From Psychroflexus curvus (GTDB lineage Bacteria; Bacteroidota; Bacteroidia; Flavobacteriales; Flavobacteriaceae), in NCBI RefSeq assembly GCF_020164585.1, contig NZ_JAIQZF010000004.1:1-64000 (forward strand): 64,000 nucleotides of DNA, in the 5' to 3' direction. Below are positions 16,720 to 26,056 of this stretch, one piece after another. Numbering within the stretch: the stretch's first letter is position 1; each line of letters opens with the position of its first letter. The notes beneath the pieces were generated by a model. That model saw nothing but the letters and a program-made list of their open reading frames with translations, made no database searches and had not been told where the DNA came from. The position numbers were made by a program, and so were the translations under genes.

Positions 16720-18306
16720 ATGAAAATAAATAAGGAAATCAATCGCCGTAGAACCTTCGGTATTGTGTCTCACCCTGATGCCGGGAAAACCACACTGACT
16801 GAAAAATTACTTTTGTTTGGAGGTGCTATTCAAGAGGCTGGCGCAGTAAAAAATAATAAAATAAAGAAAACAGCTACCAGTGACTTTATGGAAATAGAGC
16901 GCCAGAGAGGAATTTCGGTAGCGACTTCCGTTTTAGGATTTGAGTATAAAAATATAAAAATCAATATTTTAGACACGCCAGGTCACAAGGATTTTGCTGA
17001 AGATACTTTTAGAACCTTAACCGCCGTGGACAGTGTCATTGTTGTCATTGACGTCGCGAAAGGGGTGGAGGAGCAAACGGAGAAACTGGTAAAGGTCTGC
17101 CGAATGCGAAACATCCCTATCATCGTTTTCATCAATAAAATGGACAGAGAAGGTAAAGATGCCTTCGAACTTTTGGATGAAATCGAACAAAAGCTTGGAC
17201 TTCACGTCACTCCTTTGAGTTTTCCTATCGGTATGGGTTATGATTTTAAGGGAATCTACAACATCTGGGAGAAAAACGTCAATCTCTTCACCGGTGATCC
17301 CAAAAAAGACATTGAAGAAACAGTTCAGGTCAGCGATTTATCCACAGATGAAATCGACCAGCTTATAGGAACTGATTCAGCAGATACCCTGAGAGAAGAA
17401 CTAGAACTTGCACAGGGCGTATATCCTGAATTTAATATAGATCAATACAAAAAGGGAGAATTACAACCTGTCTTTTTTGGCTCAGCACTTAACAATTTTG
17501 GCGTGCGTGAACTCCTGGATTGCTTTATTGAAATTGCTCCGCCACCCCGACCAAAGCAAAGTGACACCAGAGAAATAAGACCCGAGGAAGATAAGTTTAC
17601 CGGTTTTGTGTTTAAGATTCATGCCAATATGGATCCTCGCCACAGAGACAGACTTGCTTTTGTGAAAGTAGTTTCAGGAAAATTTGAAAGAAACAAGCCT
17701 TACCTTCACGTCAGAAGCAATAAAAATTTAAAATTTTCCAGTCCCAATGCTTTTTTTGCCGAACGCAAGGAAGTTGTCGATGAGATGTTCCCAGGAGATA
17801 TTGTCGGCTTACACGATACAGGGACTTTCAAAATTGGTGACACCCTCACCGAAGGCGAAATTCTTCAGTATAAAGGTATCCCTAATTTTTCACCAGAGCA
17901 TTTTAGGTACATCAACAATGCTGACCCGATGAAGTCCAAACAACTCAACAAAGGCATTGAACAGTTGATGGACGAAGGTGTGGCGCAGTTGTTCACCCTG
18001 GAACTGAATAACAGAAAAATTATAGGAACTGTCGGGGCTTTACAGTACGAAGTCATTCAATACAGACTGGAACACGAATACGGTGCCAAATGTTCTTACG
18101 AAAACATAAACGTTCATAAGGCTTGCTGGGTAGAACCCAAAGATCCTAAAAGTGAAGAGTTCAAAGAATTCAAACGTGTAAAATCGAAATTTTTGGCTCA
18201 TGACAAGTCAGACCAACTCGTATTCCTGGCCGACTCCGAATTCTCATTGCAAATGACACAGCAGAAGTATCCTAACATTACATTTCATTTCACCTCTGAG
18301 TTCTAA
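16720..18306 (+). CDS. prfC: Peptide chain release factor 3
   Basis: A translational GTPase that removes RF1/RF2 from the ribosome after peptide release. The 528-residue protein has G1 SHPDAGKTTLTEKL, the switch I/G2 region QRGISVATSV, G3 DTPGHKDFAEDT, G4 FINKMDREG and a G5-type SFPIGMG. Domain II (FTGFVFKIHANMDPRHRDR) and the RF3 C-terminal domain follow (GALQYEVIQYRLEHEYG). The full length agrees with the family (about 525-530). It is monocistronic and divergent from the giant surface protein. Confidence 0.96.
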   Translation: MKINKEINRRRTFGIVSHPDAGKTTLTEKLLLFGGAIQEAGAVKNNKIKKTATSDFMEIERQRGISVATSVLGFEYKNIKINILDTPGHKDFAEDTFRTLTAVDSVIVVIDVAKGVEEQTEKLVKVCRMRNIPIIVFINKMDREGKDAFELLDEIEQKLGLHVTPLSFPIGMGYDFKGIYNIWEKNVNLFTGDPKKDIEETVQVSDLSTDEIDQLIGTDSADTLREELELAQGVYPEFNIDQYKKGELQPVFFGSALNNFGVRELLDCFIEIAPPPRPKQSDTREIRPEEDKFTGFVFKIHANMDPRHRDRLAFVKVVSGKFERNKPYLHVRSNKNLKFSSPNAFFAERKEVVDEMFPGDIVGLHDTGTFKIGDTLTEGEILQYKGIPNFSPEHFRYINNADPMKSKQLNKGIEQLMDEGVAQLFTLELNNRKIIGTVGALQYEVIQYRLEHEYGAKCSYENINVHKACWVEPKDPKSEEFKEFKRVKSKFLAHDKSDQLVFLADSEFSLQMTQQKYPNITFHFTSEF

Positions 18307-18344
18307 TGTTTTTTGAGCCGGGAACCTGCTTTCCGCCATAAGTT

Positions 18345-18431
18345 AGCCCCGAAGGGGCGACATACCCCGACATCAGGCGTAAGCCTGTTGAGACAGGCGC
18401 AAGCCTGCTCAGCCCCGAAGGGGCGACATAC
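18345..18431. repeat. Left flank of the 66-bp palindromic repeat array
   Basis: The hairpin GCCCC-GAA-GGGGC occurs at 18346-18358 and again at 18412-18424, exactly 66 bp apart, each followed by GACATACC. Between them lie CATCAGGC-GTAA-GCCTG and CAGGC-GCAA-GCCTG hairpins. The same 66-bp unit recurs to the right of the transposase gene. The array abuts the transposase stop codon. Confidence 0.8.
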
Positions 18432-18884
18432 CTAATCCCACACATAACGTTCATCATAATCTACATTATATTTATGAAGAAAGGCTCTATATTCACTCTT
18501 GAAGGTTTTCATTTTGTGATGCTGTTTTTGGTTAGCTATATAATTAATCACAATACCCACTTGCGAAGGGTTTACTGAAAAAGCACCATATCCATCTTGC
18601 CAATAAAATTGTGAATACCGCTTACCCTTCGTTTTGATCCATTTTGAGGAATTAGATTTAAGCTTATTTAAAAGGGTCATAAGTAGAACCTTTTGAGAGA
18701 GTTTACAAAGAATGTGAACATGATTGGTGTACCCACCTATTTTAATAGGATAACACTCTAACTGATTACAAACACCTCCAAGATAAGCGAATAGTTCTTC
18801 TTGGATTTCCTCGTCAATAAGGTGTTTCCTATATTTAGTGCTGAATACAATGTGGATATAATTTTTAACAAGCGATTGTCCCAT
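18432..18884 (-). CDS. Y1 tyrosine transposase (IS200/IS605 or REP-associated type)
   Basis: A 150-residue HUH endonuclease of the TnpA/RAYT superfamily, which nicks single-stranded DNA at hairpins. Visible are the N-terminal YIHIVFSTKYRKHLI, the metal-binding HUH motif His55-Val-His57 in GGYTNHVHILCKL, the helix with catalytic Tyr115 (VGIVINYIANQKQHH), and the FYWQDGYGAFSV segment typical of Bacteroidota members. It appears intact. Palindromic 66-bp units lie on both sides, and no TnpB partner is present. This layout favours a REP-associated (domesticated) transposase, but a simple IS200-like element next to repeats is also possible. Confidence 0.85.
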   Translation of the reverse strand: MGQSLVKNYIHIVFSTKYRKHLIDEEIQEELFAYLGGVCNQLECYPIKIGGYTNHVHILCKLSQKVLLMTLLNKLKSNSSKWIKTKGKRYSQFYWQDGYGAFSVNPSQVGIVINYIANQKQHHKMKTFKSEYRAFLHKYNVDYDERYVWD

Positions 18885-19084
18885 AATCTAATTTTAGAAA
18901 ATTACAACCTAATTGAAACGTATTCAAAAGCTTGTTTAGTACATTAAATGGGACAAAACTTACTGAATCAGAAAGGTATATCGCCCTTTCAGGGCTTTAT
19001 AGTTACAGCTTATTATTCTGATGCGCTTTGCGCATCATTAACACATATCGCCCCGTTGGGGCTAATAGCTTAAGGCTTCAAGAT
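18885..19084. repeat. Diverged hairpins between transposase and right array
   Basis: After about 95 bases of plain AT-rich sequence, three separate hairpins occur: GCCCT-TTC-AGGGC (18983-18995), GATGCGC-TTT-GCGCATC (19020-19036) and GCCCC-GTT-GGGGC (19050-19062). They are similar in size to the array hairpins but differ in sequence and spacing. The first 95 bases hold no recognised promoter. Confidence 0.65.
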
Positions 19085-19414
19085 AGCTCCGAAGGGGCGA
19101 CATATCTCAACATCAGGCGCTAGCCTGATGGAACAGGCGCAAACCTGCTCAGCCCTGAAGAGGCGACATACCTCAACATCAGGCGCTAGCCTGATGGAAC
19201 AAGCACAAACCTGCTCAGCCCTGAAGGGGCGACATATCTTAACATCAGGCGTTAGCCTGATGGAACAGGCACAAACCTGCTCAGCCCCGAAGGGGCGACA
19301 TATCTTAACATCAGGCGCTAGCCTGATGGAACAGGCACAAACCTGCTCAGCCCCGAAGGGGCGACATATCTTAACATCAGGCGCTAGCCTGATGGAACAG
19401 GCGCTAGCCTGATG
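19085..19414. repeat. Five tandem 66-bp palindromic units
   Basis: Units begin at 19085, 19151, 19217, 19283 and 19349. Each contains GCCCC-GAA-GGGGC (with small changes), CATCAGGC-GCTA-GCCTGATG (8-bp stem) and CAGG-CACAAA-CCTG (weaker stem). Units differ by a few substitutions only. The last one ends with a second copy of the GCGCTAGCCTGATG motif. Because 66 is a multiple of three, the array is open in one frame and yields a 22-residue peptide repeat, which is not a gene. Confidence 0.9.
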
Positions 19415-19430: not shown

Positions 19431-20411
19431 TTACTCTATATACCCCTTCTCCCGCATCCAGTCATCATTAAACATCTTACCAACATAACGACTTCCGTGA
19501 TCGTGAAACAGAACAACCACCACATCGTCTTTCTTGAAATGTTTTTTCAGCTGCAAAAGTCCTTTCACTGCAGCTCCGGCAGAATTTCCCAGAAACATAC
19601 CTTCTTCTTTCGCTAGCCGCTGTGTATACACCGCAGCGTCTTTATCGGTAACTTTAGTAAAGCCATCGATGCCGTCAAACCTGACGTTTAAAGGCAAAAT
19701 ATCTTCTCCAATGCCTTCGGTGACATAAGAATAAATCTCATTTTCATCAAAAATTCCCGTTTCATGGTATTTTTTGAATACGGAACCGTATGTATCGATA
19801 CCCCAGACTTTAATATCTGGATTTTTCATTTTCAGATAACTGCTCACGCCAGAAATAGTTCCGCCAGTTCCAACACCTACCACAAAGTGCGTGATTTTTC
19901 CGTCGGTTTGTTCCCATATTTCAGGACCCGTGGTTTTGAAATGTGCCTTACAATTGGATGGATTATCGTATTGGTTGACGTACCAGGAGTTTGGCGTTTC
20001 CTTAGCCAATCTGGCAGAGGTTGAATAATAAGACCGTGGATCATCTGGAGCGACATCTGTAGGGCAGACGTGAACATCACAGCCCACAGCTCTCAAAATA
20101 TCCATTTTTTCCTTGCTTTGCTTGTCACTCAGGACGCAAACCACTTTATAGCCTTTAACGATGGCTACCAAAGCCAGTCCCATTCCTGTATTTCCGGAAG
20201 TTCCTTCTATAATGGTCCCTCCAGGCTTCAAAGCACCACATGCCTCAGCATCCTCTATCATCTGCAAAGCCATCCTGTCTTTTACAGAGTTCCCTGGATT
20301 GAAGGTCTCATACTTGGCCAAAACCAAAGCATCGATGTCTTCAACTATTTTGTTCATTTTCACCATTGGTGTGTTACCAATAGTTCCAAGGATATTTTCA
20401 GCGTAATCCAT
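19431..20411 (-). CDS. PLP-dependent cystathionine beta-synthase / cysteine synthase family enzyme
   Basis: A 326-residue fold-type II PLP enzyme that would join serine (or O-acetylserine) with homocysteine or sulfide. PLP Lys44 lies in FNPGNSVKDRM, the substrate loop is GTSGNTGMGL (71-80), and the phosphate-binding loop is VGVGTGGTISG. The wording is closer to cystathionine beta-synthase (ALKPGGTIIE, PNSWYVNQYDNPSN, YVTEGIGEDILP) than to CysK, but the C-terminal CBS regulatory domain is absent. The link to the SAM-cycle gene metK nearby is suggestive only. A minus-7 box at 20430-20437 precedes the ATG. It is monocistronic. Confidence 0.85.
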   Translation of the reverse strand: MDYAENILGTIGNTPMVKMNKIVEDIDALVLAKYETFNPGNSVKDRMALQMIEDAEACGALKPGGTIIEGTSGNTGMGLALVAIVKGYKVVCVLSDKQSKEKMDILRAVGCDVHVCPTDVAPDDPRSYYSTSARLAKETPNSWYVNQYDNPSNCKAHFKTTGPEIWEQTDGKITHFVVGVGTGGTISGVSSYLKMKNPDIKVWGIDTYGSVFKKYHETGIFDENEIYSYVTEGIGEDILPLNVRFDGIDGFTKVTDKDAAVYTQRLAKEEGMFLGNSAGAAVKGLLQLKKHFKKDDVVVVLFHDHGSRYVGKMFNDDWMREKGYIE

Positions 20412-25230: not shown

Positions 25231-26056
25231 AGATGTCAGGGCTAACGCCCCTCTTACACACCTCATCTTCTTTGGCTATGAATATTGCGGGGCGATGCCC
25301 CTTACATATGCCACAACATCTTTGGTTACGAAGATTGCGAGACTTCGCCCCTATCATGTTTACTCGCATACTTCTCTTACGAAGATGTCAGGGCTAACGC
25401 CCCTCTTACACACCTCATCTTCTTTGGCTATGAATATTGCGGGGCGATGCCCCTTAAAAAAAGAGGACAGAGCCCTCGAATCTTCGTAAAACACGTATCT
25501 AATTAATGTACGGAGGGGCAGAGCCCTGGCATCTACATCAGGGAAAAAAATTAAAGAATTAACTTAAACCCAGATTACAACTTATAGATCACCTTTAACA
25601 TCCCGTTGCTAGAGCGAATGTCTCGCTCGCGTGCTAGTTAGGTTTTATTAGGATTTATAGTTCAAACTATCACAAATTATAGATACACAGACTACTATAA
25701 AACTTAGTTTTTAAGATGTCAGGGCTAACGCCCCTTTCATATACCTCATCTTCTTTGGTTACGAAGATTGCGGGGCTAACGCCCCTCCTTAATATACTGT
25801 CTTCTTTGGCTAAGAAGATGACGGGGCTCTACCCCCTTCCGCGTGTTTTTCGTTATAAAGAATATTGGGGCTAAAATTTTTACATGCATTCCCTTAGGAT
25901 ATGAAGACTATTAGGACTACGCCCTTTTAAAAGGGAGCACAGCTCCTAAATCATCACCACACGAACATATACTCATCCGACGGAGGGGGCAGAGCCCTCA
26001 AATCTTCGTAAAACACGCTTCCAACTTATGTGTTGAGGGGCAGAGCCCTGACATCT
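25231..26056. repeat. Palindromic repeat block with inverted ends
   Basis: No gene is seen in about 825 bases. A 74-bp segment (25231-25304) is repeated exactly at 25383-25456. A third, diverged copy begins at 25724. Units carry small hairpins such as GGGC-TAAC-GCCC, GGGGC-GAT-GCCCC and GGGGC-AGA-GCCCT. Copies on the right are reversed: the left edge reads AGATGTCAGGGCTAACGCC and the right edge (26036-26056) is its near complement, AGGGGCAGAGCCCTGACATCT. The middle (about 25560-25720) is plain AT-rich sequence. Short open frames here are repeat artefacts. Confidence 0.85.

Follow-up and report, generated by a model that had tools for sequence, protein, structure and literature searches.

A REP-like repeat of two hairpins tied to a Y1 transposase across Bacteroidota

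A 64,000-nt stretch of Psychroflexus curvus DNA (contig NZ_JAIQZF010000004.1, positions 1 to 64,000; hereafter the window) carries a Y1 transposase gene hemmed in by palindromic repeats. Do these repeats belong to the enzyme, and if so, what kind of system do the two make? The initial annotation had described an intact HUH transposase nested in an array of a 66-bp unit and had likened the pair to a REP/RAYT system. We found a module in which a hairpin with a 5-bp stem and a 3-nt loop (H1) is followed after about 12 nt by a hairpin with a 7-8-bp stem (H2), recurring every 64-73 nt. The locus is laid out as follows, where H3 is a third hairpin, z refers to folding, and R1 is a covariance model made from an alignment of 58 units.

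16720-18306, plus strand: prfC (peptide chain release factor 3), the left neighbor (Pfam RF3_C, 9e-47)
18315-18343, no strand: stub resembling the Rfam Flavo-1 intergenic element, recognized by eye, ending where the module begins
18345-18430, plus strand: gene-downstream module, H1-12 nt-H2-H3-H1 (one full 66-bp unit and a further H1), adjoining the stop codon (R1, 42.4 bits; fold)
18432-18884, minus strand: Y1/HUH transposase, of the TnpAY1 subclass 1.2 type by motif (NHVH, WQ, YIANQKQHH; Pfam PF01797, 3.3e-25)
18974-19065, minus strand: gene-upstream proximal module, H1-12 nt-H2-H1, in the opposite orientation and with a different H2 stem (z -5.2)
19012-19065 and 18963-18998, minus strand: R1 matches of this proximal module (49.2 and 28.2 bits)
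19085-19414, plus strand: distal amplified array of 66-bp units, H1-12 nt-H2-spacer (TRF; R1 matches starting at 19083, 19149, 19215, 19281 and 19347)
19217-19262, minus strand: best match to Rfam RF01687, Acido-Lenti-1 RNA (44.9 bits; gathering score 37)
19283-19328 and 19349-19394: other RF01687 matches (42.3 bits each)
19431-20411, minus strand: cysteine-synthase-type PALP enzyme, the right neighbor (Pfam PALP, 4.5e-73)

The array proved real, with 4.8 copies and 94% matches at 19085-19402 (TRF), and the same unit, 87% identical, makes up the left block (18345-18433), whose end adjoins the TAG of the transposase gene as had been described. The gene itself is an intact ORF of 150 aa, and a genome-wide search for the 66-bp unit, which had been proposed as a check, returned the window locus only, at three places. 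Both of the hairpins singled out at the time are present: one with a GCAA tetraloop in the left unit (CAGGC-GCAA-GCCTG), and one with an 8-bp stem, which is the H2 of the window units. The count of three hairpins per unit holds for the left unit, where H3 is perfect, but in one right unit H3 has 4 bp on the plus strand, or 8 bp including G-T pairs on the minus strand. The idea that the blocks are phase-locked across the gene was rejected because they lie 740 bp apart (11 x 66 + 14), which is not a multiple of 66. H1 and H2 are 12 nt apart in the window units, with a period of 66, and the first two of the five H1 copies in the distal array are imperfect. Folded as single-strand DNA, on both strands, six unit stretches beat 200 of 200 shuffles (z -3.5 to -5.4). 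The minus strand also carries, just upstream of the gene, a module (H1-H2-H1, 18974-19065) that the initial annotation had overlooked and that gave the best R1 score in the window. The P. curvus genome holds ten module copies, nine of them at this locus, and the module is thus hardly dispersed there; degenerate remnants lie at C1:464342-464534, and eight congeneric genomes lack them. The long tandem form that had been emphasized is therefore real as an array, but it is a local amplification; what has been conserved is the module of two hairpins and its period of 64-73 nt.

The association of hairpins with the gene was assessed in relatives, for which we took the best 80 of 89 contig stretches encoding a homologue (49-73% identical); with the window, these make 81 loci. 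Seventy-two of the 80 are labeled as Bacteroidota groups, and the other eight, mostly metagenome bins, as Ignavibacteria, Kapaibacterium (two), Kuenenia, UASB270, Chitinispirillales, Methylococcaceae and Planctomycetaceae. The density of perfect hairpins of the H1 form (5-bp stem, 3-nt loop) was 3.58 per kb up to 400 nt from the gene versus 0.163 per kb at 2-4 kb, with a dinucleotide-shuffle background of 0.116 per kb. When one mismatch was allowed, the density was 4.18 per kb within 600 nt of the gene versus 0.32 per kb far away, and a hairpin lay within 300 nt in 81/81 loci, on both sides in 63. Seven loci had none within that distance upstream and 11 had none downstream; in L084 and L112, two of these 11, hardly any sequence follows the gene. 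A further, relaxed H1 scan also matched coding sequence, and we abandoned it. The nearest upstream hairpin was in '+' orientation in 65/74 loci and the nearest downstream hairpin in '-' orientation in 58/70; hence, the gene has inverted flanks, with the reverse arrangement in some loci (e.g. L096).

The architecture of the module was regular across 109 units. H2 was detected in 92 of them, and its start lay 12 nt past H1 in 48/92 and 9-14 nt past it in 89/92, the 17 units without an H2 being left out of this count. Pairs of the same orientation no more than 120 nt apart were spaced by 64-73 nt in 90/151 cases near the gene versus 1/5 far from it. In relatives, 18 to 43 nt separate H2 from the H1 that follows; the H1 loop was GAA in 82/109 units, and the 3' flank tended to GNNATA over the 109 units. 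The 58 aligned units comprise 55/62 gene-proximal units after removal of near-duplicates and three from the window, with the row from L059 out of register. Paired cells amounted to 92.2%, and 11 of 12 pairs showed changes on both sides; the covariation score was 0.494 versus 0.193 for shuffled alignments and at most 0.122 with slid partners, figures that are inflated because units were chosen partly for having hairpins. Among the nine loci with modules in both orientations, orientation-specific H2 types did not reach significance (0.73 for the same orientation versus 0.57 for opposite ones, p=0.09).

We then characterized the enzyme. Its NCBIfam match is IS200/IS605 (7e-19), and the Y...Q..HH motif occurs in 79/81 loci, the remaining two genes being truncated or frameshifted. 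The AlphaFold model (pLDDT 88.6) has the IS608 and ISDra2 TnpA proteins as its nearest folds; in a structure comparison, IS200/IS605 transposases took ranks 1-29 and the Escherichia coli RAYT rank 30. IS608 and ISDra2, of the IS200/IS605 family, recognize hairpins. In a tree of 49 proteins, in which 23/46 inner branches are open, five RAYTs separated from the 44 others at 100/100, and five IS200 transposases clustered with two others at 99/98. By motif, the protein falls into TnpAY1 subclass 1.2 as tabulated by Quentin 2018 (Table 1, PMC6006769), sharing Y---Q--HH (YIxNQxxHH), WQ, the HuH motif ([DN]H[IV]H), a length of about 150 aa and the occurrence in Bacteroidetes. The HuH motif is NHVH in the window versus DH[IV]H in that table, and both forms occur among relatives. 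For subclass 1.2, an IS200-side group, the same table enters 'no' under REP, unlike what we found, namely a hairpin within 300 nt of the gene in all 81 loci.

Membership of the RAYT family (TnpAREP, class 2) was rejected on three grounds: the tyrosine motif is YIANQKQHH and not Y---NP, the GT[AG]G foot occurs in 0/109 units (within 8 nt in 1/109), and the tree sets the window transposase apart from the five RAYTs. Carriage by a plasmid or a phage was likewise rejected, given a best plasmid match of 54.7% to a Persicobacter replicon and nine phage records all below 31%. Elsewhere in the P. curvus genome there is a RAYT-like gene with a YIHQNP motif (G000:C4:17431-17628, L006), which groups with RAYTs on a long branch. 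The genome also has a second subclass 1.2-type gene, only 38% alike; by eye, this gene (C23:220000) has its own GACCCC-type repeats nearby. A Chryseobacterium paper describes genes termed 'RayT' close to one for a drug pump (PMC11194056).

How, then, does the unit compare with REPtrons, in which a RAYT/TnpAREP gene is accompanied by REP, BIME or REPIN sequences? As in the REPtrons described in PMC2817692, PMC3733652, PMC6006769 and PMC8266576, a Y1 gene has inverted palindromic flanks, the repeats are clustered and, in relatives, dispersed, stems change while pairing is kept, gene copy is low, and the position is stable in some lineages. In contrast to REPtrons, whose class 2 motif is Y---NP, the protein here has Y---Q--HH, the repeat lacks a GT[AG]G foot, and each unit, repeated every 64-73 nt, combines two different hairpins separated by about 12 nt. 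The organization is REPtron-like but is not a RAYT system: of the resemblance first proposed, there is good support across Bacteroidota for a REP-like repeat that goes with a Y1 transposase, and the RAYT identity fell away on motif, foot and tree. The finding is broader than the original claim and differs from it in detail.

We consider it probable that the locus is a REPtron-like unit in which an IS200-side, subclass 1.2 transposase acts on the composite hairpin repeat as single-stranded DNA. The observations behind this reading are the architecture and covariation of the module, its co-occurrence with the gene and position beside it, its dispersal in relatives, the empty sites of congeneric genomes, and the constant neighbor and purifying selection of the gene in Chryseobacterium/Kaistella; binding, cleavage, the choice of strand and the making of the copies by the enzyme are inferred. 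Speaking against it are the genomes that hold the module without a close gene, the scant dispersal in P. curvus itself, the unclean right junction at the window locus and the small number of Rfam matches above the curated cut-off. Hairpin recognition by IS200/IS605 transposases has been described (PMC8266576). The enzyme would bind the composite repeat in single-stranded form, its catalytic tyrosine would cut at the foot of H1, and the strand would then be moved or rejoined. The strand that serves as substrate would be 5'-H2-12 nt-H1-3', with the linker tending to end in TATNNC, as drawn in Rfam for Acido-Lenti-1. Over time, such activity could have produced inverted copies beside the enzyme's own gene, head-to-tail arrays and dispersed copies, and the 66-bp array of the window would be a local expansion of the composite unit.

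An unlikely alternative is a plain IS200-type insertion sequence whose ends are hairpin-rich by chance, the arrays being terminal structures and solo ends. The side of the tree on which the protein falls and the IS608/ISDra2-like fold would suit it, as would the empty sites in congeneric genomes and L042, in which the gene and its left flank look, by eye, to be duplicated in tandem. Among 22 congeneric loci around the cysteine synthase gene, prfC is adjacent in ten, all of which have neither transposase nor module; the stretches examined for the remaining 12 did not show prfC in that position. The left junction of the window insertion adjoins H1 and lies inside an apparent Flavo-1 element, and at the right junction the ancestral intergenic stretch is missing; therefore, either the insertion was not clean or the stretch was lost later. 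Flavo-1 (RF01705) was detected at E<=0.1 in 8/17 congeneric loci near prfC and the cysteine synthase gene (L181, L184, L186-L188, L190, L194 and L195), three above the gathering score, and the stub at 18315-18343 gave no Rfam match when this region was scanned with permissive filters. Flavo-1, too, could be a DNA repeat and not an RNA.

Against a plain insertion sequence, flanking modules are inverted in most loci, whereas IS200/IS605 elements are described as having no terminal inverted repeats (PMC2817692), and the module also has dispersed solo repeats, unlike IS200/IS605. Moreover, the low likeness of the two subclass 1.2-type genes of P. curvus speaks against it, and repeats far exceed gene number in several genomes: in ten genomes chosen among the R1-positive ones, with 150 candidates scored per genome, we counted 109, 56, 37, 25, 18, 17, 15, 12, 12 and 10 copies, the last figure being that of P. 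curvus. Of 20 dispersed places retrieved, those read by eye, up to nine, look intergenic. The gene also appears to be retained in place. In 15/16 Chryseobacterium/Kaistella loci, a set that excludes the Chryseobacterium gleum metagenome bins L041, L042 and L112, the upstream neighbor belongs to the same family (trpF in two checked with Pfam), and the transposase is under purifying selection (dN/dS median 0.072, maximum 0.144, from the 41/120 pairs with dS between 0.05 and 1.5). No tnpB-like neighbor was seen among the seven neighbor clusters of at least three members, judged by eye and with Pfam for some.

Next, we investigated the co-occurrence of repeat and gene across 395 Bacteroidota genomes. 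A close gene was defined as a homologue with at least 49% identity over at least 120 residues (27/395 genomes); this cut was chosen after the lists had been seen, and the next case, G485 at 48%, is also R1-positive. R1 was positive in 27/27 genomes with a close gene versus 58/368 others (Fisher p=2e-20), an association that is partly built in because R1 was trained on the flanks of close homologues. All p values for R1 are descriptive owing to this training and to the non-independence of related genomes. The R1-positive others comprise 32/142 genomes with a distant or fragmentary homologue, the other 110 being negative, and 26/226 with no homologue at E<=1e-6. Wide occurrence of the unit in genomes without the gene had been named at the outset as an argument against the partnership; this holds in part, as the module occurs in the above 58 genomes without a close gene, the search for the exact 66-bp unit having covered the P. 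curvus genome. In a sample of 149 genomes of the family, R1 was found in six, including 3/4 with a close gene (p=1.5e-4); in the R1-negative one, G050, the gene contains stops. Two genomes of this sample without the gene carry 16 and 6 module copies, and nothing significant was found in a search for transposase remnants near modules at the loci examined in gene-less G033 and G116. Inverted module pairs with facing H1s recur among the R1 matches of the 395 genomes.

The persistence of repeats in genomes without a detected gene, together with the start of the window copy inside another repeated intergenic element, would be in keeping with repeats that hitchhike passively, or that the transposase prefers as targets for insertion, and not with repeats that it produces. 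We regard this as quite unlikely, since hairpins flank the gene on both sides in 63/81 loci, mostly inverted, and distant subclass 1.2-type genes have other hairpins nearby. At 17 loci with such distant genes (32-48% identical, all Y...Q..HH; L174 from G393 reaches 49% with another aligner and hence was also counted as a close gene), the density of generic hairpins of at least 6 bp was 3.97 per kb out to 300 nt and zero at 900-1500 nt; 10/17 loci had such hairpins on one or both sides, and 5/17 on both. As a separate observation, 23 of the 26 R1-positive, homologue-free genomes share one genus code (g201), for which gene loss, poor assembly around repeats, or mobilization in trans are possible.

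The preferred reading, a substrate repeat served by its own transposase, bears on an existing Rfam family. In the RF01687 (Acido-Lenti-1) consensus, a hairpin of 8 bp is joined through 12 nt to one of 5 bp whose loop has 3 nt; this is our module as it appears on the opposite strand. The Rfam model is independent of the R1 alignment. With permissive filters, three window units scored above the gathering score and the remaining units more weakly. Acido-Lenti-1 was reported in 2010 from Acidobacteria and Lentisphaerae and rated there as probably an RNA and probably not cis-regulatory (Weinberg 2010, PMC2864571); unlike the module here, it is filed as a noncoding RNA, and the table of that paper makes no link to a transposase. 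Rfam lists it as an sRNA of unknown function. A 2026 paper describes its function as little known and suggests regulation of Tannerella proteases (PMC13298647), and it has been listed among the ncRNAs of Vibrio (PMC10059132).

At E<=0.001, RF01687 was found in 78/395 Bacteroidota genomes, 35 of them above the curated cut-off, and in none of 14 control genomes. Matches occurred in 20/27 genomes with a close gene versus 58/368 others (p=3e-10). In at least eight genomes, a match lay no more than 150 nt from a Y1 gene that the window protein had detected (G446, G413, G448, G421, G485, G307, G330 and G241; the G330 match is just under the curated cut-off, and in G448 the gene is fragmentary). Among the matches listed, those in G421, G485 and G307 are on both sides of the gene. 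Permissive scans matched 8/20 loci at E<=0.01 and 7/13 short loci (from L039-L069) at E<=0.1, and none of 17 congeneric loci without the gene. At the gathering threshold with fast filters, 0/20 loci (L039-L058) matched; therefore, Rfam as used in annotation sees part of the family. In the literature searched, which leaves out most subscription journals, we found neither six hairpin strings of the module nor an earlier report linking module and transposase.

It seems very unlikely that the module truly functions as a noncoding RNA or regulates at the RNA level and is frequent near the transposase only by coincidence: the sRNA class, the 'probably' rating of 2010 (PMC2864571) and the position of hairpins near start and stop codons would suit it, but copies occur on either strand, some scattered and others in tandem or inverted arrays, their density is tied to the transposase gene with an association across 395 genomes, and covariation is equally expected of a DNA repeat. 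The Acido-Lenti-1 repeat is more likely a DNA substrate of the enzyme that has spread around genomes than an RNA. Going further, we lean toward a wider proposal with three parts: that Acido-Lenti-1, instead of being an RNA, is what subclass 1.2 Y1 transposases act on as single-stranded DNA and what they disperse; that a transposase-REP partnership arose a second time, within the IS200 lineage, its two-hairpin repeat being recognized by spacing and not by a GTAG foot; and that every subclass 1.2 paralogue, the second P. curvus one among them, has a hairpin family of its own. The most useful consequence would be that an orphan RNA family gains a likely identity as transposase-linked DNA, so that an Rfam 'RNA' still listed among ncRNAs in genome papers becomes a mobile DNA repeat with a named enzyme. 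It would also be a second, independent case of a REP-transposase partnership, and a comparison of the two could therefore address why hosts keep such enzymes.

Several further features of the neighborhoods were noted. The 15 Chryseobacterium/Kaistella loci with the same upstream family are L089, L091-L093, L095, L099, L102, L103, L105-L108, L110, L114 and L117; three of them have a trpB-like gene downstream, with a possible effect on expression of the trp operon. An hsdS-type gene lies upstream in four loci and an hsdR-type gene downstream in three (Pfam for L043 and L062). The unit stands beside type I restriction hsdS and/or hsdR in L043, L046, L062, L068 and L072, and by eye in L052, L070 and L075. 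Within the hsdR-type ORF at L043:4731-7286, an H2-like palindrome is repeated in tandem and in frame and is translated as a peptide repeat. Lastly, a 51-bp tandem repeat of 2.3 copies with GGGGCTAACGCCCC hairpins occupies window positions 25713-25828 and is unlike the H1-H2 module.
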